This document shows positions 50,309 to 62,670 of a stretch of DNA of 64,000 bases, in pieces. Both the position numbers and the translations under genes were made by a program. Where the stretch lies: contig NZ_JACHVA010000126.1 of NCBI RefSeq assembly GCF_014230055.1, positions 62,001 to 126,000 of the forward strand, written 5' to 3'. Under the pieces are notes generated by a model. That model saw nothing but the letters and a program-made list of their open reading frames with translations. It made no database searches and was not told where the DNA came from. The stretch comes from Puniceicoccus vermicola. GTDB lineage: Bacteria > Verrucomicrobiota > Verrucomicrobiia > Opitutales > Puniceicoccaceae. Numbering within the stretch: position 1 is the first letter of the stretch; each line of letters opens with the position of its first letter.

Positions 50309-52729
50309 ATGAGAATCCATTTCATCCTTTGTTTTTGTCTCTCAGCGTTCGGGCTATCCGTTCTCTCTGCTCAGACCGATAAGGTTACGACGACTCCGGC
50401 GTTACTTCAGCAGGGATTTGGCCCGGGTGGGGCTCTGCTTCCGAGGGATGGTTCTAATTACTGTGCGCCGACTTCGAGTGCGAATTCGGTGCTTTGGTTG
50501 AACAACAACGGCTATACCCGACTTTACGAGACGCCGTTTGCTTCGGCCTCTGATAATGAAATGAACTTGGTCCGTGCGCTGGGAGGATTAATGGGGACTG
50601 AGGCGCAAGGGGGAACCGGTTCGGAGGGGATCGCCCAAGGATGGGAGACCTATCTCAATCTGAAAGGTTATGGAGGGTTTACGGTTACGGGCTTTGAGGC
50701 GGGGGAGAATATTTCCTACGCCGATTACGATCTCAAGTTTCTTCAGAATCAGAATAGTGGCTACAACGTGGTAAATTTCGCCTACTTTTGGGGCGCGACC
50801 GAAGATGGTATCGACAAGATCTTTGGGGGACACGCGACGACCCTGTTGAAGTCCGATCCTCTCAATGATGAGATCATTATCAACAACCCGGCTCCTTTCA
50901 CGGCAGGCGATAATCCCGAAACTCATCCGGTACAGCGGATCGATTTTATGGGAGGAACGGATGTGATGGCCGTTGATTTCTCTGCGGAGTATGGGGGGCG
51001 GCAGGTCTGGGGAGTGGCCGGCTTTGCGACCGTGGTCGCTCCGGATGTGAATCCCGAAGGCAGTGGCACGCCGACGACCTGGACGATCTCCGGCGACCAA
51101 GTCATTAATACCAATGGTTCTTATCTTACGGTCGAAGCACCGATTTCCGGGAGTGGACGGCTGATCAAAACGGATTCTGGCGACGCCGATGGGACACTCG
51201 TTCTGAAAAGCGGAGTCGGCGGTCTCGCAGATCCCTACACCTTTACTGGAGGTGTGCTGGTCGATGCCGGAACCTTGTCGGTGCTGTCCGATGCGGCAAA
51301 TCCTGTTGGGACTGGCAATGCCGAGATCAGTGGCGGATTTTTGGAATTTGCTCCCGACGGCTCCGGTGAAAACTTGACGCTCGCTCTGGCGGGCGATGCC
51401 GGATCCACCTTCAGCTTCACCGGAGGGGGTGGGCTCGTTGTCGATAAGGGCGATCATCTCTCGGTGGAGTTGATTCTGGGTGGGAATACCGACGGAACGA
51501 CCTCGAACTTTGTCCGCGGCGAACAGGGGGGCCTCATGTTGCTCCCCGCTTCGGGGATTGCCGAGTTGGGGAAGAGTGAGCGTATCCGCGTTGCGGGCAC
51601 GGGAGGAAACCTGCCCCAGATGACAAACGGGATCGTCAACCCTCACGTGGTTGGTGCCGATCCGACGCAGTCTTTCGATGGATCGTTTCTTTCCTATGAC
51701 GGCACGCGCGGCTTTGAAGCGCACACCGGTACGAATACGTCGGGAACGCCGCTGGGCTCGATGGGGGCGACGGATGTTGCCGATGTGACAACGAATCAGA
51801 CGGTGAGCGGTTCGCAGATCATCTACGCGCTTCGGGTCGGGGACGGGGTAGAGGTCGGCGGAAGCGGAACCCTCAATGTCGGTAGCGGCACGACCGGAAG
51901 CTCCGGAGGCGTCATTCTGAACGGAGGTCGCCTCGCAAACGCCGAAACTCGTTTCGGGCAAGGCCAGGGCGTGGTCTACACCAGCTCGCGGGGAGGGCAA
52001 ATTGATTCGACGATTACAACGGCCGACGGCGTTCTCTATTATGGACCGGGCATGGTGAATGTCACGGCGGCAAACACGTACTCGGGGGGGACGCTGGTTC
52101 AGGACGGTCACCTGCAGGTGAGAAATTCTTCCGGATCGGCGACGGGAACAGAGGCCGTTCTGATCAGTCGCAATGGGGTCGTTTCCGGGGATGGGTCGAT
52201 TGCGGGCTCTGTTGAAGTGGAAGGGATTGTCGTTCCCGGAGTTTTTGGAACAACGGGAGATCTGACCCCTTCGACGCTCACCGTCGGAGGCGATGTATTT
52301 TTCGCAACTGATAGCATCCTCGACTGGACGCTGGTCAGCCTTACCGATGATTCACTCGGAGGAGCGGCTGGCGCAGACTGGGGATTCCTCTCCGTCGGAG
52401 GGGCACTGTCGTTTGACGAAGACAGTACTCTACGGCTGAACTTTGAGGGGGTCGCTGGGCCGGAATCCGGAAATGCCTTCTGGGCCACCCAGCGTCTCTG
52501 GAGCTTTATTTCGTTTGGCACGCTGACTGGTTTGGACAATTTGGAGATCTTTGGAAGTAAACTCGAATACGGAGATTTTCAGCTGGTTGAGGATTCGGAG
52601 GACAGTGTCGTGCAGTTGGCTTATGTTCCGAACGGGGGACTGGTGATTCCCGAACCTGCCGCCTATCCGTTGATCGCAGCATTTCTGGCGTTGGCGGCCG
52701 TGGTTTCCCGCCGGAAGCGGAGGGAGTAA
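50309..52729 (+). CDS. PEP-CTERM surface protein with C39-like peptidase head and autotransporter-type beta-strand repeats
   Basis: 806 residues. A signal peptide (about 1-22) precedes a papain-like region: Cys52 in N-Y-C-A-P-T-S-S, His175 in F-G-G-H-A-T-T and Asn192 in I-N-N-P-A, the Cys-His-Asn/Asp order of C39-type peptidases. From about 250 the chain is beta-solenoid with PATR-type units (N-T-Y-S-G-G-T-L-V-Q-D-G-x-L, G-D-G-S-I-A-G). It ends I-P-E-P-A, hydrophobic helix, R-R-K-R-R. It is likely anchored at the surface by exosortase processing. Whether the head is an active peptidase is unproven. Confidence 0.85.
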   Translation: MRIHFILCFCLSAFGLSVLSAQTDKVTTTPALLQQGFGPGGALLPRDGSNYCAPTSSANSVLWLNNNGYTRLYETPFASASDNEMNLVRALGGLMGTEAQGGTGSEGIAQGWETYLNLKGYGGFTVTGFEAGENISYADYDLKFLQNQNSGYNVVNFAYFWGATEDGIDKIFGGHATTLLKSDPLNDEIIINNPAPFTAGDNPETHPVQRIDFMGGTDVMAVDFSAEYGGRQVWGVAGFATVVAPDVNPEGSGTPTTWTISGDQVINTNGSYLTVEAPISGSGRLIKTDSGDADGTLVLKSGVGGLADPYTFTGGVLVDAGTLSVLSDAANPVGTGNAEISGGFLEFAPDGSGENLTLALAGDAGSTFSFTGGGGLVVDKGDHLSVELILGGNTDGTTSNFVRGEQGGLMLLPASGIAELGKSERIRVAGTGGNLPQMTNGIVNPHVVGADPTQSFDGSFLSYDGTRGFEAHTGTNTSGTPLGSMGATDVADVTTNQTVSGSQIIYALRVGDGVEVGGSGTLNVGSGTTGSSGGVILNGGRLANAETRFGQGQGVVYTSSRGGQIDSTITTADGVLYYGPGMVNVTAANTYSGGTLVQDGHLQVRNSSGSATGTEAVLISRNGVVSGDGSIAGSVEVEGIVVPGVFGTTGDLTPSTLTVGGDVFFATDSILDWTLVSLTDDSLGGAAGADWGFLSVGGALSFDEDSTLRLNFEGVAGPESGNAFWATQRLWSFISFGTLTGLDNLEIFGSKLEYGDFQLVEDSEDSVVQLAYVPNGGLVIPEPAAYPLIAAFLALAAVVSRRKRRE

Positions 52730-54214: not shown

Positions 54215-54838
54215 ATGTTTTTCCTGATTCTTTTTGTCATCGCAGCTGCGGTTCTGTTTTATTTTTACCGTCGGAATCGAGACGGGGCCGAATCTTCAAG
54301 ATCCGGTGTCAGTGGCAATGAGAATAGGCCATTGACGATCCAGAATGTTCGGTCCGGGGGAGTGATTCAGTTGGAGGGTGTTGGCGAAGGTCTTGAAGAC
54401 TTCGACGTAGTCGTTAAATCCAGGCATCTTTACGAGGAAGACGGCTTTGTCTGGTATGAACTGGAGGGTGAAAAAGGTATTGATCCGGTTTGGATAGAGA
54501 TTGAGGAAGATGACGAACTCGAGTTGAGCATATGTTTGAATAAGCTGAAGCTCAGCGAGATTGGAGTTACGGGTTCCGACATCAATGAGATTGGTGATCA
54601 GGGAAAAGGATTTATTGATTTCGATGGCATGAAGTTTATCTTTGAAGAGTCGGGAAAAGCCCGGTTTTTTCGAAACGGTGATCGTTCTTCGGGGGGGGAG
54701 AAATTTCGATATTGGGATTTTGAAACGAAGGACGGAATGCGGTATCTTAGTGTCGAACGTTGGGGAGCAGAGGAATACGTCGCTTATATCTCGGAGCCGC
54801 TCCGTTTGGGGCAAATTAAAATATTTTCTCTCTCTTGA
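54215..54838 (+). CDS. DUF4178-family protein with N-terminal membrane anchor
   Basis: 207 residues. One N-terminal membrane helix (about 1-20), a basic stop-transfer segment, then a beta-rich cytoplasmic domain: L-T-I-Q-N-V-R-S-G-G-V-I, an E-Y/W-x-L-E-G strand and Y-W-D-F-E, all DUF4178-like. The family is known from PspA/polyamine gene neighbourhoods but has no assigned activity. It is the first gene of the ten-gene membrane-stress module; the DUF350 gene starts 51 bases after it. Confidence 0.8.
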   Translation: MFFLILFVIAAAVLFYFYRRNRDGAESSRSGVSGNENRPLTIQNVRSGGVIQLEGVGEGLEDFDVVVKSRHLYEEDGFVWYELEGEKGIDPVWIEIEEDDELELSICLNKLKLSEIGVTGSDINEIGDQGKGFIDFDGMKFIFEESGKARFFRNGDRSSGGEKFRYWDFETKDGMRYLSVERWGAEEYVAYISEPLRLGQIKIFSLS

Positions 54839-54889
54839 AGGGCAAATGGCCCACTTTTTTTCTCCTAGTTCTTTAGACTCCCCACTTTT

Positions 54890-55735
54890 ATGAGCCCATT
54901 TTTGATAGATTTTTTGACTGGAGCGAGCTTCCTAGCACTAGCCTTGGTCATCGTCATGGCGGCGAAACTCATCAATGACTTCTTTATTCCTTACTTGATT
55001 GATGTCCAACTCGCCCGGCATGACAATACCGCCCTTGCCGTTAGCTTTGCAGGTTACCTGCTCGGGGTAATCATTATTTTTATTGGTGCTTTTGTCGGAC
55101 CAAGTTATGGGCTGGTCGGAGATCTCCTGCGGGTTGGTGGATGGTCTCTGGGTGGGGTTTTCTTGTTGAACCTGTCAAGAGTTATCAATGACAAGTTGAT
55201 TCTCTACAAATTCTCCAACGTTAAAGAAATTATCGATGATCGGAATGTGGGGACCGGTGTTGTTCAAGCGGGCTCGTACCTCGCCTCCGGCTTCATGGTG
55301 GCTGGCGCGATCAATGGGGAGGGGGGAGGAATTTTGACAGCTCTCGCCTTCTTCTTCGCTGGGCAGACTGTACTGGTTCTATTTGGTCTTCTTTACGAGA
55401 AAATGGTTCCCTATGAGGTTCAACAGGCAATTGAAGACGATAATGTGGCGGCAGGTCTAGCATTTGCTGGCGCCCTGGTAGCCATCGGGATTGTTCTTGC
55501 TCATGCTTCAGGAGGGGCCTTTGTCGGATGGGGCGATAATTTTGTGACCTTTCTACGAGAAGCGGCTCTTGTCATCATTCTTTTTCCTTTTGTGCGGTTT
55601 TGTTTCGATAAGATTGTTCTCGCTAAGATCGATCTGAACCGTGAGATTTCAGAAGATGGCAATGTGGGTGCCGCTATTTTGGAAGCCTCATCGATGGTCG
55701 CATTTGCAACCGTTCTCGTCTTCATATTCGGCTAA
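54890..55735 (+). CDS. Tandem DUF350 (YjfL-like) membrane protein
   Basis: 281 residues with about eight hydrophobic helices, made of two DUF350 units of about 130 residues. Four related motifs recur: R-H-D-N-T-A-L-A-V-S-F-A-G near 43, R-N-V-G-T-G-V-V-Q-A-G near 117, D-D-N-V-A-A-G-L-A-F-A-G near 183 and D-G-N-V-G-A-A-I-L-E near 258. E. coli YjfL is a single DUF350 protein in the yjf cluster with a PspA paralogue. It probably partners PspA or the channel in the inner membrane; no biochemical role is known. Confidence 0.88.
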   Translation: MSPFLIDFLTGASFLALALVIVMAAKLINDFFIPYLIDVQLARHDNTALAVSFAGYLLGVIIIFIGAFVGPSYGLVGDLLRVGGWSLGGVFLLNLSRVINDKLILYKFSNVKEIIDDRNVGTGVVQAGSYLASGFMVAGAINGEGGGILTALAFFFAGQTVLVLFGLLYEKMVPYEVQQAIEDDNVAAGLAFAGALVAIGIVLAHASGGAFVGWGDNFVTFLREAALVIILFPFVRFCFDKIVLAKIDLNREISEDGNVGAAILEASSMVAFATVLVFIFG

Positions 55736-55754
55736 ATCTATCTGATCTATTATC

Positions 55755-56381
55755 ATGCCCACACGAAGTGAATTTCGTTCCAATCACATCGATCCCGATA
55801 TCGAGAGTTCCAGTCGTGGATTAACTCCCTACTCCATGGTTTTGATCGGGTTTTCCATGCTTTGTTTTCTTGGGGCTTTCTATATGAGTTTAGGGGCGGG
55901 TGCCGTCCAAAGCTTTACTTTCAATCCAGGTGAAGAGAAGCAAATTGAGCAGTTGAATGTCAAAGAACCCAATACTGTATTCCTTGTCGATGTATCGCAA
56001 TCGACATCAGGGCTTACAAATAATAAGGGGTGGAGTGATGTCTCTGTGAATGTTGGGAGCCCGGAAGGTTCGAACTTGATGGCGTTCGGGAGTGATTTCT
56101 GGCGTGCGAGCGGTTACGATGACGGCCCTTGGAGTGAGAAGAAAAATAGCTTCGATATGAAAGTCACTTTTCCGATTGTCGGTAAATATCCGGTGAGTAT
56201 CGAGAGTGCCAGTTCTCCTCCCAACTACAACAAGCCCGTCTTAGTGAGATTTGAGCCGAAGCGGGGAAGCACGATTCCGTTTTTTGTTTTCGGAGTCGTC
56301 GCGCTGTTGGTTGGGATTGTAATGGGGTATTACGCTAATCGGGAAGCGGTTAACACTGCCATCGCTAATAGTATTGAGTAA
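55755..56381 (+). CDS. Unrecognised protein with two membrane helices and an external beta domain
   Basis: 208 residues. I do not recognise the family. A helix at about 26-48 and another at about 175-193 bracket some 125 residues that would face the periplasm; that part is beta-type with P-G-E-E-K-Q-I, V-F-L-V-D-V-S-Q-S and Y-P-V-S-I-E-S-A-S-S segments. It sits 19 bases after the DUF350 gene and nine before the next, inside the PspA module, so it is probably a periplasmic-sensing or scaffold component. Confidence 0.75.
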   Translation: MPTRSEFRSNHIDPDIESSSRGLTPYSMVLIGFSMLCFLGAFYMSLGAGAVQSFTFNPGEEKQIEQLNVKEPNTVFLVDVSQSTSGLTNNKGWSDVSVNVGSPEGSNLMAFGSDFWRASGYDDGPWSEKKNSFDMKVTFPIVGKYPVSIESASSPPNYNKPVLVRFEPKRGSTIPFFVFGVVALLVGIVMGYYANREAVNTAIANSIE

Positions 56382-56389
56382 TTTCTAAA

Positions 56390-56647
56390 ATGTCCAAGAA
56401 CGCTAAGCTTATCCTATTCAGTTGTTGCCTTCTTGCCCTTTTCGGATTGGCTTGGCTTGCTGGAGTCCGAGGATGGGGCTATGCTGGCTACGGAACTGAA
56501 CGTAATGAGTCAGGTCATTACTACGGGCACCGCGGGCCGAGCTTCTTTTATTTTGGAGGAGCACGTTATTATCCGACATCGTCAGCGCGAGGCGGCAGTG
56601 TTGGGGGTCCGGGGTCGGCCGGATTGGGACCCGGTGCCGGGAAGTGA
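56390..56647 (+). CDS. Small Gly/Tyr-rich membrane protein of the PspA module
   Basis: 85 residues: one N-terminal helix (about 6-24, could be a signal anchor), then a Gly/Tyr/Ser/His-rich tail (G-H-Y-Y-G-H-R-G, G-G-A-R-Y-Y) with no fold signature. No family recognised. Its start is nine bases after the previous stop and the aminopropyltransferase starts 32 bases later, so it is very likely expressed with them. Small Gly-rich proteins in this place are easy to miss in annotation. Confidence 0.65.
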   Translation: MSKNAKLILFSCCLLALFGLAWLAGVRGWGYAGYGTERNESGHYYGHRGPSFFYFGGARYYPTSSARGGSVGGPGSAGLGPGAGK

Positions 56648-56679
56648 GATGTCCGTTTGCCGAGTAATTCAGCGACCGC

Positions 56680-58266
56680 ATGGCAGAAATTGAATCAGGG
56701 AGGGACGATCCCGAGGTTTTCCCATCCCGCTTGGCGAAGCATAAGGAGACCTCTGTCCTCATTATCGCCGTCTTCGTTGCGGGACTTTGTTCAATCGTCT
56801 ATCAGTTGCTGATCAGTGCGACGTCGTCGTATTTTCTCGGTGACAGTGTCAAGCAGTTCTCGCTCACAATAGGTCTTTATATGGCCTCGATGGGTTGTGG
56901 TGCATGGCTGTCGCGATTCGTTCAGTTCAATCTCATCCGGAATTTCATTTTTCTCGAAATTGGACTTGGTTTTCTCGGTGGAGCAAGCGTTCCGCTACTC
57001 TATCTTTGTTACGCGGCTTTCCCAGATGCTTACATCTATGTCATGATCTCTCTATCTCTCGCCATCGGTTTACTGATCGGCTTTGAGATTCCCCTGCTTA
57101 CCCGGATTCTGGAACGCTATTATAGTTTGAAACTCAATGTTTCTAATGTTTTGAGCATTGACTATCTGGGGGCGTTGATTGCGACCTTGCTTTTCCCATT
57201 TGTACTTCTCCCGTTCTTCGGTACCTTCCGTAGTTCTTTGATTGTTGGGCTGATCAATCTCGGGCTCGGAGTGCTTATGCTGGTATTTTTCGGACGGAAG
57301 GAGTGCAGGAGCAGCTCTTCCGTTCTGGCTGTTCTCAATGGTGTCACTGCTATCGTGTTGGTGATCCTTCTCGTTGCCGCCAATATGCTTATTGGTCTGT
57401 GGTCGCAGAGCTTGTATTCAGATCGGATCATTTTTGATCAACAGAGTCGTTATCAGAAAATTGTGTTAACGCGATATGCCGACGATATTCGTCTTTTTTT
57501 GAACGGAAATCTTCAGTTCTCCTCTAGGGATGAATATCGCTATCACGAGTCTTTGGTGCATGTGCCCATGGCTGCATCTCGAGGTCATTCGCAGATTCTA
57601 CTCCTCGGCGGAGGAGACGGTATGGCGGTCCGTGAGCTTTTGAAATACCCGGATGTTTCTAGGATAACGGTCGTTGATCTAGATCCTGCCGTAACCAGCT
57701 TGGCTAGAAAAAATCCATTGCTTCGCGTGCTGAACGAAGATGCTTTCGAAGATCCAAAAGTCAAAATAGTGCATCAGGACGCCATGCGTTTTTTGCAGGA
57801 TTCGGTTCCAGCGAGCTATGATGTGATCTTGGCGGATCTACCCGACCCTAATAACCTTTCCCTTTGTCGGCTCTATAGTCGGGAGTTCTTTAATCTGGTA
57901 GCATCTCGCTTGACCGCCAGCGGTGTTTTCGTAACGCAGTCCACTAGCCCATATTTTGCCCGCCAAGCCTTCTGGACCATTGAGCGCACCCTCAAAGAAT
58001 CAGATTTTTCACAAGTTCTTCCTTACCACGTCCATGTTCCATCTTTCGGTGATTGGGGCTTCAATCTCGCCGCGAAGTTTCCAGTTTTGCCGGATTTGAT
58101 TCGAATGCCGGATGTCTCAACACGCTTTCTCGACGGAGAACTTCTTGCTCGATTGTTCCATTTTCCTTCCGATATCGACAGGCCGAAGAGAGAGGTGCAG
58201 GTCAGCACGCTTGATGACCCGAAACTTATGCACGCCTACTTGAAAGGCTGGAATTACTGGCGCTGA
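56680..58266 (+). CDS. Membrane-anchored spermidine-synthase-like aminopropyltransferase
   Basis: 528 residues. About seven membrane helices in residues 25-245 are followed by a soluble spermidine-synthase fold: Y-R-Y-H-E near 286-290 (the Y-x-E substrate pair), the nucleotide loop G-G-G-D-G at 310-314, V-D-L-D-P near 332 and D-L-P-D-P at 386-390 with the likely catalytic Asp386. It should use decarboxylated S-adenosylmethionine, made by the SpeD encoded five genes later, to aminopropylate an acceptor at the membrane. The acceptor may be a polyamine or something else; soluble SpeE is only about 290 residues. Confidence 0.9.
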   Translation: MAEIESGRDDPEVFPSRLAKHKETSVLIIAVFVAGLCSIVYQLLISATSSYFLGDSVKQFSLTIGLYMASMGCGAWLSRFVQFNLIRNFIFLEIGLGFLGGASVPLLYLCYAAFPDAYIYVMISLSLAIGLLIGFEIPLLTRILERYYSLKLNVSNVLSIDYLGALIATLLFPFVLLPFFGTFRSSLIVGLINLGLGVLMLVFFGRKECRSSSSVLAVLNGVTAIVLVILLVAANMLIGLWSQSLYSDRIIFDQQSRYQKIVLTRYADDIRLFLNGNLQFSSRDEYRYHESLVHVPMAASRGHSQILLLGGGDGMAVRELLKYPDVSRITVVDLDPAVTSLARKNPLLRVLNEDAFEDPKVKIVHQDAMRFLQDSVPASYDVILADLPDPNNLSLCRLYSREFFNLVASRLTASGVFVTQSTSPYFARQAFWTIERTLKESDFSQVLPYHVHVPSFGDWGFNLAAKFPVLPDLIRMPDVSTRFLDGELLARLFHFPSDIDRPKREVQVSTLDDPKLMHAYLKGWNYWR

Positions 58267-58292
58267 ACTACGGAGCTATTTCGGTACACACC

Positions 58293-59393
58293 ATGTTGCT
58301 TCTCATTATTAACAAGTTCTTTCCTCCGTCTTCTTCCCTCAGGAGACTGGCCTTTGTGCTGTTTTGGACGTTTTGCCTCAATTTTGTCTTTGGGGCAGCC
58401 TTCTACTTTGCCGAACGAAATGTACAAGAGGGATTATCATTAGCCGACAGTATATGGTGGTCCATGGTGACAATGACCACAGTCGGCTACGGTGATTTTT
58501 ACGCGCAAACTAGTTTCGGTCGATTTCTGGTATCTTATCCGACGTTTCTCCTCGGTATTGGGTTGCTTGGTTATTTTCTTGGTTCGGTAGCCGATGCAGT
58601 GATTAAAGGGGCTTCGGCGCGACGAAGGGGACTTGTAACTATTATGAAACACAATCATTTTCTCATTTGTGGTCATCCATCTACTTCGAAGGTTTTACAA
58701 ATAATACGTGAGCTTCGGGTGCTCGATGCATATCGCGGTGCAAGCTTCGTGCTCGTCGCGAATTCGATAGAAGAATTGCCTGGAGAATTGGCTTCTGAAG
58801 GGGTGCTTTTTGTTAGAGGGCGCCCCCAGTCGGAAGACATTCTCCGCAAAGCAGGTGTGGAGAAGTGCGATGGTGTTTTCGTCCTTGCTGAGAATCGAGA
58901 TTCTGAAGATGCCGATGCACAGACTTTTGCTACTAGCGCCATCATCGAGAGTATTTCCCGCGAATGCGGTCGGGATATTCGAGTCGTTTCGGAATTGATA
59001 GGTCGTCAGAATATGAGGATGATGCAAAGAGCTGGCGGGGATGGAATTGTGGCTCATGAAGGAATCACCGATTGTCTTCTCGTGCAGGAATTTCTAAGCC
59101 CCGGTATGAATGAGATTTTTCATCAAATCATCACCAATCGTATCGGTTCCCAATTTCACATACTCAAAACACGTTTGGTAGGGAAAAAGGTTCGGGATAT
59201 ACAGGTCGCCGCCATTAAGCATCCTAATAGCATGCAAATTATTGGCCTTATCCAAAATGGGAATTTCATTCTAAATCCATCGAATCGGCATGTTATCGGA
59301 GTTAATGAAAGGTTGATTATCCTTGCTGAAAAAGCGGCGAACTTTGAAGATGTTGAAAATTCAATTCTCGCGAACGACCCTCCATCCTCATGA
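58293..59393 (+). CDS. Two-helix potassium channel with cytoplasmic RCK (TrkA-N) domain
   Basis: 366 residues. Two membrane helices (about 18-42 and 75-100) flank a pore loop with the K+ selectivity filter T-V-G-Y-G-D at 63-68. Residues about 118-250 form a TrkA-N/RCK fold (F-L-I-C-G-H), and a second RCK-C-like part follows to 350. It should pass K+ under control of a ligand or redox state bound to the RCK domain. Ion channels recur in PspA/polyamine neighbourhoods, where a role in membrane-potential response is supposed. It lies 26 bases after the transferase gene. Confidence 0.92.
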   Translation: MLLLIINKFFPPSSSLRRLAFVLFWTFCLNFVFGAAFYFAERNVQEGLSLADSIWWSMVTMTTVGYGDFYAQTSFGRFLVSYPTFLLGIGLLGYFLGSVADAVIKGASARRRGLVTIMKHNHFLICGHPSTSKVLQIIRELRVLDAYRGASFVLVANSIEELPGELASEGVLFVRGRPQSEDILRKAGVEKCDGVFVLAENRDSEDADAQTFATSAIIESISRECGRDIRVVSELIGRQNMRMMQRAGGDGIVAHEGITDCLLVQEFLSPGMNEIFHQIITNRIGSQFHILKTRLVGKKVRDIQVAAIKHPNSMQIIGLIQNGNFILNPSNRHVIGVNERLIILAEKAANFEDVENSILANDPPSS

Positions 59394-59441
59394 TGGTTGT
59401 AAGAAAATAACCCATCAAGATTCTCTCAAAATACCAGAATT

Positions 59442-59852
59442 ATGAACGGACCTATTATCCACACCACGCGCACTGACGGCTTGATCGATTTTCTTCAATT
59501 GCAGGGGATGGAAGTCGAAGCCCTTGAATCGCCGATTTATCGTGTAGTTCGTGATGGCGAGCTTCCTGTATACCTTAACATTGGGGAAGAGGTGCTCACG
59601 TTTGAAGTGGATCTTGGCGGGGTCTGCGAGATTGCATGCGAAGAGCTATATAGGGCGTTGCTCGACGCGAATACCGAGATCCAGCCGGTTTCGTTTGGGC
59701 TTGATAGCTCGAATCCCGAGGATCCTCGATTGGTTCTCGAGGAAAGCAGAGTGATCGGGGATCTGTCTGATCGCGAGATCCTCAGTGTTTTCGACGCTCT
59801 TGAACTCGCTGCCGACAAGGCTGAACAAATTCTCGCACCTTTCCTCAAGTAA
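59442..59852 (+). CDS. DUF2170 (YjfI-like) protein
   Basis: 136 residues, soluble, acidic. The pattern I-Y-R-V-V-R-D-G-E-L-P-V-Y and the C-terminal helix D-A-L-E-L-A-A-D-K-A-E-Q fit DUF2170, the family of E. coli YjfI, which is encoded just before the PspA paralogue YjfJ. Here too it precedes pspA, by 30 bases. The family has no known activity; physical or regulatory linkage to the PspA protein is inferred from conserved order. Confidence 0.85.
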   Translation: MNGPIIHTTRTDGLIDFLQLQGMEVEALESPIYRVVRDGELPVYLNIGEEVLTFEVDLGGVCEIACEELYRALLDANTEIQPVSFGLDSSNPEDPRLVLEESRVIGDLSDREILSVFDALELAADKAEQILAPFLK

Positions 59853-59882
59853 ATTATAAGCGGAACCCAGGAGACCCAAACC

Positions 59883-60584
59883 ATGAGTATTTTTTCACGC
59901 ATCTTCAAAATTGGCCAAGCCCACGCTAACCGGACTATCGATAAGTTCGAAAAGCCCGAGGTAATGTTGAATCAAGCTATCGAGGATAAGGATAAGCAGA
60001 TCCGTGAAGCCAAGCGGTCGATACAGAGCTGCATCGCGACAGAGCGAGAAACCAAGAAGCAGTTGGAAAATGAGAAGGCTGAAAAATTCTCCTGGGAACA
60101 AAAGGCTCAAGCCGCGCTTCGAGCGGGTAAGGAAGAGCTCGCGGTCAAAGCTCTCCAGCGGGCGACGGAACACGAGCAAAAGGCAACGGCTTTGCAAAGT
60201 AATTGGCAGCAACAAAGAGACGCTGTCGACGATCTGAAGAAAGACGTATTCAAGATGGAGGATGAGCTTGCCGAGTTCCGTCGGAATAAAGATTTTATTA
60301 TTGCCCAAAGTAAGGCCGCCGATGTGAAAAAGGGCATTTATGAGGCCAAGGCCAAAATTAGCAAAAAAGGACGTGGGGCCGATGATCTCATGGCCCGAAT
60401 GAAAGCCAAAGCAGAAAGGACCTCGCTCGAAGCCGATGCCGCTCAGGAGCTCGCCGACACTTTCGAAGGGAAGGATTCTTTGGAGACGGAGTTTGAGGAA
60501 CTCGGAAGTGGAGCGAGCAGTCCGGATATTCAGGCTAAACTCGAAGCGATGAAAGCTGAGATGAAAGGGGCGAAAAGCTCATAA
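59883..60584 (+). CDS. pspA: PspA/IM30-family phage-shock protein (YjfJ-like)
   Basis: 233 residues, nearly all coiled coil, with the PspA start pattern M-S-I-F-S-R-I-F-K-I, an amphipathic first helix that binds stressed membranes. P-E-V-M-L-N-Q-A-I near residue 25 and long Lys/Glu/Gln-rich helices follow. PspA/Vipp1 proteins form rods or rings that mend inner-membrane leaks. As there is no pspF, pspB or pspC here, it belongs to the YjfJ-type system in which DUF350, DUF2170 and polyamine enzymes are the partners. Confidence 0.94.
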   Translation: MSIFSRIFKIGQAHANRTIDKFEKPEVMLNQAIEDKDKQIREAKRSIQSCIATERETKKQLENEKAEKFSWEQKAQAALRAGKEELAVKALQRATEHEQKATALQSNWQQQRDAVDDLKKDVFKMEDELAEFRRNKDFIIAQSKAADVKKGIYEAKAKISKKGRGADDLMARMKAKAERTSLEADAAQELADTFEGKDSLETEFEELGSGASSPDIQAKLEAMKAEMKGAKSS

Positions 60585-60617
60585 ATTTCTAGAGTCCTGG
60601 TTTCGTAGTTTATTGAG

Positions 60618-61049
60618 ATGTCAACTGGATGGAAATCCTCATCCGTTGTTCCAGAAATGATATTGGGACATCACCTCCTTTTGGATTTGAGGGGATGTGC
60701 ATCAGAGAAACTCGATTCGGTGTCCGTTGTGGAAGAATTGCTTCGAGAGGCGGCGGATACTGCAGGTGCTACTATTGTTGAGGCGACATTTCACCATTTT
60801 GCACCGCAAGGAGTTAGTGGTGTTCTCGTCATCGCGGAAAGTCACATTGCCGCTCACACTTGGCCAGAGTATGGGTATGCGGCAATCGATTGCTTCACTT
60901 GTGGTCAGTCTGAGATTCTTGAGCGCATCGCTATGTTGATCGCCAAAGGTTTTAGAGCTTCCAATTGTTCACGTAGGCTTCTGGCGCGAGGACCGTTGTC
61001 TTCGGAGGCGGATTTTTGCGATGCGACTGACCTTTCGGGAAAATGCTGA
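60618..61049 (+). CDS. speD: S-adenosylmethionine decarboxylase proenzyme
   Basis: 143 residues, the size of class 1B bacterial enzymes. The self-cleavage site is A-E-S-H with Ser75 as the future pyruvoyl residue, followed by His80 in A-H-T-W-P-E and Cys95 in D-C-F-T-C-G. These three have the same spacing as Ser63, His68 and Cys83 of the Thermotoga enzyme, so it should be active. It supplies decarboxylated AdoMet to the membrane aminopropyltransferase of this module. No separate spermidine biosynthesis gene is nearby. Confidence 0.93.
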   Translation: MSTGWKSSSVVPEMILGHHLLLDLRGCASEKLDSVSVVEELLREAADTAGATIVEATFHHFAPQGVSGVLVIAESHIAAHTWPEYGYAAIDCFTCGQSEILERIAMLIAKGFRASNCSRRLLARGPLSSEADFCDATDLSGKC

Positions 61050-61109
61050 GGTCCTGGATTAGACCCTATTTTCGGCTTCGGACGTTTGTTACCTGAGAAT
61101 CGGTGTCTT

Positions 61110-62480
61110 ATGCCAAGAGCTGTTGTCGAATATTGCCTCTCTCCCGCTTTGCGAGCGTCCCCCTCTGAAAGGGAGAGCGTGGCAATCGATACGCTGGAAA
61201 CTCGTTTTGAAATCTTCTTTGCATTGTTTCTCGGTGGGAGAATGGATGGCCGATGGGGAACGAAGGAGTCAGAATTAGAATCAGAAGTGGCTCGTCAATT
61301 GGGTTGGTCTAAGACTGACCGAAAATTGCTCACTTCAAGGCTCGACCATTTGGTTTCCTACGATTTGAGCCTTTTTAAAAACGCCGCCAGATGCCGTCCT
61401 CTCGGTCAAACAATCTATCGCTTGGCTTTCTGCGCCGCTGCGATTGACGGTGTGCCAAATACCGACGAGCGGCGCTTTCTCGGAAATCTGGTGCAGCGAC
61501 TGTTAGGGGCTTCCGATTCTGAAGCCGAGTCGCAAATTTTATCGAAGTTAGCCGATGCATCTTACTTTGGCTCATCTGGATTGGAGCTAGGGCAGTCTAG
61601 TATAGAAGAAGATTCGAGGAGTTCCGTCTTTGGAGGATTGGGTCAAGGTGCTCCTCATCCGATTCGACAGCCTCTCAATGAAGTGATGTCCGAACTGGAT
61701 GGTTTGATTGGTTTAGAGGGGGTTAAAACGGAGATTAAACGTTTGGCGAGTTTTCTTGAAATCCAGAAAAAACGTTCAGCTGCCTCTTTGCAGGTTGCCG
61801 ATATCTCTCTTCACATAGTGTTTTCTGGTGCACCGGGAACAGGAAAGACTAGTGTCGCTCGCATTATCTCCAAAATATATCATAGCCTCGAATTTTTGGA
61901 AAAAGGGCATCTCGTGGAAACGGATCGTTCTGGTTTGGTCGGACAGTATGTTGGGCATACTGCTCAAAAAACAAATGAAGCCGTTGATCGTGCTCTTGGT
62001 GGAGTCCTTTTCATCGATGAAGCCTATGGACTGTCCCGATCAGAGGGTGAGAGCGATTTTGGTGGTGAAGCCGTCGATACACTGGTGAAGAGGATGGAGG
62101 ATGAACGTCATCGACTTGTGGTTATCGTTGCTGGATATCCAGAAGAAATGCAGGGGTTTCTCGACTCGAACCCCGGTTTGCGTTCTCGATTTAACACTCA
62201 TTTGCACTTCGAGAATTATTCCGCTGCCGAACTCTGCAAGATCTTCAAAATTTTTTGTGATAATAATGATTATCGTTTGAGCGCGAAAGCAGAGACGAAG
62301 CTGTTTGAAATTTTCAAAAAAGAGACCGAACGGGCTGGGAAAGGTTTTGGAAATGGTCGATTTGCGAGGAACTTATTCGAGCAGATTATTCGCAATCACG
62401 CTTTTCGCTTGAGTCTCAGAGAGGGACCTTTGGATCGAGAGACCTTGGAAACATTGGCCTTGGAGGATATCGCAGAGTAG
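61110..62480 (+). CDS. AAA+ ATPase of CbbX/SpoVK type with TerB-like N-terminal region
   Basis: 456 residues from the ATG at 61110; a TTG at 61086 is in frame but unlikely. The first 150 residues are helical with A-A-A-I-D-G-V-P-N-T-D-E-R-R near 110-122, the pattern of TerB-like domains. The AAA+ part runs from about 190, with Walker A G-A-P-G-T-G-K-T at 240-247, Walker B V-L-F-I-D-E at 299-304, an R-S-R-F-N arginine finger region and the CbxX/CfqX C-terminal helical lid. It likely remodels a protein partner, perhaps PspA assemblies. Last gene of the module. Confidence 0.88.
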   Translation: MPRAVVEYCLSPALRASPSERESVAIDTLETRFEIFFALFLGGRMDGRWGTKESELESEVARQLGWSKTDRKLLTSRLDHLVSYDLSLFKNAARCRPLGQTIYRLAFCAAAIDGVPNTDERRFLGNLVQRLLGASDSEAESQILSKLADASYFGSSGLELGQSSIEEDSRSSVFGGLGQGAPHPIRQPLNEVMSELDGLIGLEGVKTEIKRLASFLEIQKKRSAASLQVADISLHIVFSGAPGTGKTSVARIISKIYHSLEFLEKGHLVETDRSGLVGQYVGHTAQKTNEAVDRALGGVLFIDEAYGLSRSEGESDFGGEAVDTLVKRMEDERHRLVVIVAGYPEEMQGFLDSNPGLRSRFNTHLHFENYSAAELCKIFKIFCDNNDYRLSAKAETKLFEIFKKETERAGKGFGNGRFARNLFEQIIRNHAFRLSLREGPLDRETLETLALEDIAE

Positions 62481-62670
62481 ACTAGGCCCGCACGCCGGCG
62501 TAAGGATTTAGATGGGCTTCCGGTCGTTCTCTATGTTGTTCGTTCGGAACTAAGTTCTATCTTTACCTTTTTTAAGGGAGAACGATTGAGGCGCGCTAAG
62601 CCCCTATTCAGCTTACCCCGATCTGATCAAACCTTGCCACCTGTCGAATGCGGTGAGTAGCGTCGGATCC
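62481..62670. other. Intergenic region after the PspA module
   Basis: No gene seen. A short GAAC-TAA-GTTC hairpin at about 62547-62557 followed by a T-rich tract (CTTTACCTTTTTTAA) is a weak candidate terminator for the module. Confidence 0.4.

Follow-up and report, generated by a model that had tools for sequence, protein, structure and literature searches.

A run of ten genes at positions 54215-62480 of the window, the 64,000-nucleotide stretch of Puniceicoccus vermicola DNA analysed here (contig NZ_JACHVA010000126.1), encodes an S-adenosylmethionine (AdoMet) decarboxylase (SpeD), an aminopropyltransferase fused to seven transmembrane (TM) segments, and a PspA protein, and raises the question of which molecule receives the aminopropyl group. 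The original prediction for this run was local aminopropylation at the membrane, perhaps of a lipid or of a membrane-bound polyamine. We found that neither of these targets is favoured, and that the fusion enzyme (56680..58266, + strand) probably has as its acceptor the C-terminal lysine of MP4, an 85-residue protein with a single TM segment, encoded directly upstream (56390..56647, + strand) and matching no Pfam or NCBIfam family.

In MP4 the TM segment is followed by a tail rich in Gly, Ser, Tyr and His, which ends ...SARGGSVGGPGSAGLGPGAGK-COOH (last residues GAGK). Homologues of MP4 recognisable by sequence are few; however, in a sample of 92 fusion loci that spans about 15 phyla, open reading frames (ORFs) near the transferase gene end in ...GGK, ...SFGK or ...SHK, an ending which we refer to as the K-tail. 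The ORF maps of high-GC loci include shadow frames, and for these loci the analysis was confined to ORFs matched by a profile and to the tail statistics. When the C-terminal dipeptides of small TM-containing ORFs near the fusion gene were counted with no composition filter, GK was found in 31 of the 92 loci and HK in eight, and the next pair in six. Among control ORFs, GK ended none of 357 at a distance of 5-12 kb and one of 554 on the opposite strand. With the tail filter applied, the K-tail is present in 61 of the 68 loci that have DUF350 or DUF4178 and in two of the 24 that have neither (P = 3.8e-13 by Fisher's exact test, a value that is overstated because the loci are not independent samples). 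The seven misses comprise four loci that are tailed by eye (L033, L077, L087, L110) and three cut by contig ends (L080, L101, L121). In an out-of-sample test the K-tail was found in all four fresh plasmid loci, from Gemmatirosa, Tritonibacter, Novosphingobium and Burkholderia.

The span of phyla, together with the change of scaffold beneath the tail, is a stronger argument than the P value. The K-tail occurs on small TM proteins, on MP3 (L039) and on DUF4178 proteins after the TM segment, and also on proteins of 148-536 residues (L034, L059, L064, L068, L069, L096, L125). For example, L039:2731-3474 is a natural fusion of MP3 with an MP4-like K-tail, ending GGGFSGGK, and fusions of DUF4178, TM segment and K-tail, with the tail placed after the sole TM segment, are found in Clostridia, Dysgonomonas and Curvibacter. 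The GK and HK types interchange only twice on the tree of fusion proteins, compared with a mean of 10.5 changes and a minimum of eight in shuffled data. Judged from these sequences, the K-tail behaves like a portable signal.

A further argument comes from operons of similar frame in which a ligase takes the place of the transferase, such as yjfIJKLMC and ygiBC of E. coli and a gammaproteobacterial operon (L148) with the order YjfI(DUF2170)-PspA-Kch-DUF2491-DUF350-DUF1190-GSP_synth. The E. coli enzymes YjfC and YgiC are annotated as peptide-spermidine ligases (Pederick et al. 2023, Biochemistry 62:899, as cited in PMC12270671 and PMC10948618). Among the DUF1190 proteins of such operons, YjfM ends RGGYGRSSSARGHWGG, YgiB ends ...SRSMGG, and those of L146 and L147 end RGGFGSRASRHTGYSFGG and RGGFGSQAAARGSWGGGKGFGG, again with GG-COOH ends; the four C-termini have in common RGG[FY]G...GG-COOH, which is likely to be a spermidine-ligation tail. 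The tails that accompany the ligase end in GG and would present the free carboxylate that it requires, whereas those beside the transferase end in K and would present the free amine that it requires. In addition, the side chain of a terminal lysine mimics putrescine, so the transferase could attach its usual group there. We regard this match between tail end and enzyme chemistry as the strongest single reason for the proposed acceptor. No DUF1190 protein was found in the 23 fusion-carrying genomes searched, a small sample, and this is compatible with mutual replacement of the two tail systems.

It could be instead that the target of the fusion is a lipid, for instance phosphatidylethanolamine or an aminolipid, or else a small free amine at the membrane, and that the K-tail protein does no more than bring the enzyme in or undergo cross-linking elsewhere. 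The enzyme does sit in the membrane, 22 of the fusion loci have no recognised K-tail, and the acceptor is left open in the relevant passages of Ravi et al. 2024 (PMC11237479) and by Li et al. 2019 as cited there. However, neither a near-universal terminal lysine on unrelated scaffolds nor a GG/K switch that follows the chemistry of the enzyme would be expected if the target were a lipid or a free amine, and we consider such a target unlikely.

The original prediction also took the ten genes for a single co-inherited module, related sets of which recur elsewhere, and proposed a comparison of gene order, which was run. All ten ORFs are real and follow one another in one direction on the + strand with intergenic gaps of 8-51 nt, as had been claimed. 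The congener G131 (L123) has all ten genes in identical order, and G416, from another family of the same order, has nine of them contiguous, including SpeD and lacking the K+ channel; both observations bear out co-inheritance, and parts of the set are found across phyla. The run opens with a DUF4178 protein with an N-terminal TM segment (54215..54838, + strand; Pfam 62.8 bits, cut-off 25) and a tandem DUF350 integral membrane protein of YjfL type (54890..55735, + strand; Pfam 167.8 bits over two stretches, cut-off 26). These are followed by MP3 (55755..56381, + strand; no Pfam or NCBIfam family), which has two TM segments with an extracytoplasmic domain between them and no lipobox. Homologues of MP3 are found in L035, L036, L037, L038, L039, L042, L044, L122 and L140, and its place upstream of MP4 is conserved; counts from a first MP3 hidden Markov model, which drifted into DUF4178 proteins, were left out. 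In a plasmid of Alteromonas mediterranea (L034; NZ_CP018025.1, 7977-14635) the order is fusion-SpeD-TelA-DUF4178-K-tail protein (536 residues)-DUF350, adjoining a DNA cytosine methyltransferase gene, and TelA occupies the position held elsewhere by PspA. Fusion genes without nearby DUF350, DUF4178 or K-tail (L040, L041, L043, L046, L049, L053, L055, L058, L066, L075, L093 and others) constitute a second type, with many from Saprospiraceae and Flavobacteriia.

Two or three independent stress units (the K-tail genes, YjfI-PspA-SpeD-AAA and the K+ channel) might nevertheless have come under a common promoter by chance in this genus. The absence of the channel from G416 would fit such a loose neighbourhood, as would genome G046, where a YjfI-PspA-SpeD-AAA tetrad, which stands by itself there and in its congener G247, lies 0.68 Mb from the fusion locus, with DUF350, too, away from the tetrad. 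The contiguity of nine genes in another family and of ten in the congener speaks against it, however, and G046 keeps both units in one genome though separated. We therefore regard a chance assembly as rather improbable. A promoter scan detected no promoter-like sites above chance inside the ten-gene run. Terminator-like sites number 17 in the module, compared with 11.6 +/- 3.7 by chance, and are located within coding sequence; folding of the intergenic end at 62470-62660 showed no unusual structure. The G+C content of the module is 47.8%, compared with 54.9% for the remainder of the window, which is consistent with horizontal acquisition. Upstream, at 50309-52729, the window encodes a protein that looks secreted and has a PEP-CTERM-like C-terminus (VIPEPAAYPLIAAFLALAAVVSRRKRRE).

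The K+ channel gene (58293..59393, + strand) encodes an MthK/BK-like pore with the filter TVGYGD and an RCK domain (Ion_trans_2 57.7 bits, Slo-like_RCK 39.4 bits). By filter motif, a K+ channel is present in only six of the 92 fusion loci, so the link to ion flow that had been put forward is not supported; nor is PspA repair as such. A K+ channel is also present in the ligase operon L148, and its recurrence beside both enzyme chemistries is suggestive; that a tethered polyamine might serve as a pore plug is speculation.

We examined the fusion protein for catalytic residues and topology. The motifs DEYRYHE, GGGDG, VDLD, DLPDP and PSFGxWG are kept, D386, D389, Q259, Y288, H289 and E290 are invariant among 51-54 fusion homologues, and the catalytic Asp residues D313, D386 and D389 are conserved. 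The protein passes the curated polyamine aminopropyltransferase model (PRK03612/NF002956; 614 bits, cut-off 472) and scores below the cut-off of the speE model TIGR00417 (150.7 bits, cut-off 249.6). Its catalytic domain matches the fold of solved aminopropyltransferases (spermidine synthase, SpdSyn, fold; 1uir/7xif), and in an AlphaFold2 model (mean predicted local distance difference test, pLDDT, 92.6) seven TM helices are seen, two of them joined in one long helix. Across the 92 fusions, the mean number of Lys and Arg residues is 2.3 at the N-terminus and 2.4, 3.1 and 3.3 in loops 2-3, 4-5 and 6-7, compared with 0.3, 0.4, 0.8 and 1.3 in the intervening loops and the segment past TM7, and 91 of the 92 sequences agree with the positive-inside rule. 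An odd number of TM segments with the N-terminus inside would place the catalytic domain outside the cytoplasm. This domain also has fewer cysteines than cytosolic SpeE proteins (0.45 compared with 1.60 per 100 residues, P = 3e-7, the comparison set of 16 SpeE being narrow in taxonomy). Amine-oxidase-like flavoproteins with a twin-arginine (Tat) signal, often with a lipobox-like Cys, are encoded in about a dozen loci by genes that overlap or abut the fusion gene (L033, L067, L081, L084, L086, L089, L091, L097, L112, L113, L114, L118, L120), and these may oxidise the aminopropylated product. Taken together, charge topology, cysteine depletion and the Tat-exported amine oxidases suggest that the chemistry is extracytoplasmic. 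The original description was of a transferase tethered to the membrane; with a catalytic domain predicted to face outwards, the fusion would be more than that.

The same oxidases bear on another explanation of the tail, in which the C-terminal lysine is a site of peptidoglycan attachment by an L,D-transpeptidase or of an oxidative cross-link, and aminopropylation is unrelated to it. The Braun lipoprotein, Lpp, is also joined through its C-terminal Lys and provides a precedent for attachment, and the oxidases could provide a cross-link. However, the operons contain no recognised transpeptidase, most K-tail loci have no amine oxidase, the K-tail is shared by Clostridia and Gram-negatives, and the tail follows the aminopropyltransferase subtype, all of which make attachment or cross-linking clearly unlikely.

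The donor side of the reaction is encoded in the module by SpeD (60618..61049, + strand), an AdoMet decarboxylase of class 1b (TIGR03330, SAM_DCase_Bsu, 129.7 bits, cut-off 75.65). In an alignment SpeD keeps the pyruvoyl Ser75, His80, Cys95 and the stacking residues F61 and W82, numbered against what we take to be the corresponding positions of T. maritima SpeD. SpeD and the SpdSyn domain are each present only once in the genome, both in the module. Elsewhere in the genome, on contig C40 (L141:7314-11786), genes for SpeA (816 bits), a carboxyspermidine dehydrogenase (CASDH)-like protein (403 bits, under the model cut-off of 800) and NspC (482 bits, cut-off 409) lie side by side, and by sequence these encode a route to spermidine that does without SpeD. 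The decarboxylated AdoMet (dcAdoMet) of the module is therefore probably for another purpose. A sole SpeD, a sole aminopropyltransferase and a separate spermidine route all fit the claim of local aminopropylation at the membrane. The fusion of a major facilitator superfamily (MFS)-like half with SpdSyn studied by Li and colleagues reportedly lies beside thousands of AdoMet decarboxylase homologues; it is said not to complement a SpdSyn deletion, and spermidine is said to be absent from its hosts. An ordinary biosynthetic role, in which SpeD and the fusion would turn putrescine into spermidine or a longer polyamine and lie near stress genes for regulation, would suit the intact donor site and catalytic Asp residues and the name of the nearest curated model, but with SpeA, a CASDH-like protein and NspC in the genome, and with the reported failure of complementation, it is the least likely explanation and very doubtful.

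Of the ten family assignments in the original prediction, nine hold and one, DUF2170 (YjfI proper), fails: the ORF at 59442..59852 (+ strand) does not match PF09938 and is recognised only by PF22550 (CesT_Tir_1; 27.4 bits, cut-off 27). We refer to it as YjfI-like, a CesT/Tir-type chaperone or adaptor; true DUF2170 is a different branch, present in L148. A search of its profile against the PDB gave no significant match, and homologues of it adjoin PspA-SpeD-AAA. The adjacent PspA/IM30 protein (59883..60584, + strand), of the bacterial ESCRT-III superfamily, scores 144 bits against PF04012 (PspA_IM30; cut-off 33.9) and is below the cut-off of the classical PspA equivalog TIGR02977 (73.5 bits, cut-off 243). 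A second, divergent PspA is encoded elsewhere in the genome (G000:C89, L142:1838-5164) beside proteins that look flotillin/YqiK-like and YqiJ-like, a neighbourhood resembling another PspA context in the passages of Ravi et al. 2024 (PMC11237479).

The last gene of the run encodes an AAA+ ATPase with AAA and AAA_lid_6 domains (61110..62480, + strand). Its longest ORF opens with TTG at 61086; the ATG at 61110 is the likelier start, as homologues align from there. The Walker motifs and a pore loop, QYVGHTA, are kept, and the nearest solved relatives are CbbX and EccA; none of the equivalog cut-offs is reached (CbbX 250 bits, cut-off 459; SpoVK, the nearest, 307 and 423; EccA 253 and 467). Its N-terminal domain has no Pfam match. 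In an AlphaFold2 model (pLDDT about 92 over residues 1-150) it is an all-helical bundle with one outstanding PDB match, 2h5n, which we take to be TerB-like (Z 9.5, rmsd 3.3, 118 aligned residues; next match Z 4.0), a result to be read cautiously, as it concerns a helical bundle at Z under 13. The domain was found in five of 388 Verrucomicrobiota genomes, in all five directly after YjfI-PspA-SpeD; a sixth match, covering only the start of the AAA region, was not counted. None was found in plasmids, and in 50 fusion-carrying genomes of other phyla, as in G079, no real match was found, the matches covering only the last 54 columns. Thus, the YjfI-PspA-SpeD-AAA tetrad is rare yet tightly linked. 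In eukaryotes and archaea, ESCRT-III members are recycled by Vps4. By analogy, an AAA+ protein encoded beside a chaperone and PspA, itself a member of the ESCRT-III superfamily (PMC8281802), suggests a functional counterpart of Vps4, with homology claimed for the AAA+ only. Other AAA+ proteins beside PspA are reported in passages of Ravi et al. 2024 (PMC11237479).

From these observations we propose that the operon serves to produce and handle a membrane protein armed with a polyamine, which helps to stabilise the stressed membrane, a proposal whose chances we put at about even. SpeD would produce dcAdoMet. This would have to reach the outer face, and the 7-TM half of the fusion would be its simplest passage. 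The catalytic domain, at the outer face, would then move the aminopropyl group onto the side-chain amine of the lysine that ends MP4, and the product would be N6-(3-aminopropyl)lysine, a tethered spermidine-like end. DUF350, DUF4178 and MP3 may form a membrane assembly that holds the tail protein. At the inner face, the YjfI-like protein would load or position PspA as an ESCRT-III-like polymer, and the TerB-CbbX-type AAA+ would thread and recycle PspA or the YjfI-like protein. Outer polycation and inner scaffold would jointly stabilise the stressed membrane, and the RCK-gated K+ channel may relieve or report the same stress. More broadly, extracytoplasmic aminopropylation of the C-terminal lysine of tail-tagged membrane proteins, by an enzyme that receives dcAdoMet through its own 7-TM half, may be a widespread and unrecognised modification. 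The tail would be its portable signal in about 15 phyla, the modification would be the chemical counterpart of spermidine ligation onto Gly-Gly tails, and in this lineage it would be coupled to PspA and a dedicated AAA+ remodeller; this wider claim is tentative, and we hold it a little short of even.

Several observations weigh against this proposal. We know of no precedent for export of dcAdoMet, and only 26 of the 92 loci have SpeD within 6 kb of the fusion. PspA is present in 11 of the 92, and YjfI and the AAA+ in fewer, so the link to PspA is a variant feature of fusion loci. The 22 loci that lack DUF350, DUF4178 and the K-tail would need another acceptor. The E. coli ligases have no membrane anchor, so in that branch modification would need to come before export. 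Finally, the orientation of MP4-type proteins predicted from charge agrees with an outward tail in 43 of 63 cases and disagrees in ten, a weak result since the tail is Arg-rich; in this count the automatic pick for L032 was a wrong, distant ORF (the true tail is L032:9783-10019), and L079 is probably spurious.

If the proposal is true, the conserved C-terminal lysine of a neighbouring protein reduces the open question of the acceptor to a single testable peptide, and protein aminopropylation outside the cytoplasm would be added to biology. It would also explain why two polyamine-enzyme chemistries occur in PspA/YjfI/DUF350 operons, as either one would furnish a Gly-rich tail with a polyamine end. 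For bacterial PspA, it would provide a candidate for a dedicated AAA+ partner.

The core of the locus has already been described, and its operon is a variant of that published kind. Passages of Ravi et al. 2024 (PMC11237479) describe YjfI(CesT/Tir)-PspA operons that include a 7TM-spermidine-synthase fusion, a lipoprotein, DUF350 and DUF4178. In a class set apart from these, the partners are a glutathionylspermidine-synthetase-like ligase, a K+ channel, DUF350 and DUF1190. The authors propose monitoring of polyamine level or of the aminopropylation of other substrates, and for a role of AdoMet decarboxylase that is independent of polyamines they refer to Li et al. 2019 (Biochem J 476:2579). Their second group of operons with the SpdSyn fusion (for example Shewanella AAN56744-AAN56747) has in common with our locus the CesT/Tir-PspA dyad, the 7-TM SpdSyn, DUF350 and DUF4178, whereas here the gene order is permuted, MP3 occupies the place of the lipoprotein Ctha_1186, and SpeD, the RCK K+ channel and the TerB-CbbX-type AAA+ are added. 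The words CbbX, TerB and SpoVK are absent from the text of that paper, and its passages on these operons do not describe a K-tail protein or an outward catalytic domain. Three features appear to be new within the literature searchable here: the lysine tail, a catalytic domain that faces outwards, and the linkage of the AAA+. The MFS-SpdSyn system of Li and colleagues is reportedly alike in its fusion, in its association with SpeD and DUF350 and in a proposed substrate other than putrescine; our proposal differs in naming a specific acceptor, the C-terminal lysine tail, and an extracytoplasmic site. With CbbX, SpoVK and EccA the module AAA+ has in common the AAA core, lid_6 and the pore loop YVGHTA, but it has its own, putatively TerB-like N-domain, is linked to PspA and scores below all the equivalog cut-offs. 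It resembles the Vps4-ESCRT-III pair in that the gene of a polymer of the ESCRT-III superfamily has that of a dedicated AAA+ close by, although this AAA+ belongs to another clade and has a putative TerB-like domain rather than an MIT domain. The operons of E. coli (yjfIJKLMC and ygiBC) and L148 are alike in YjfI-PspA-(Kch)-DUF350, in a Gly/Ser/Arg-rich tail protein and in an enzyme that uses polyamines; they differ in that the enzyme is an ATP-grasp peptide-spermidine ligase and the tail protein a DUF1190 lipoprotein with a GG end, where the present locus has a transferase and a tail ending in K.

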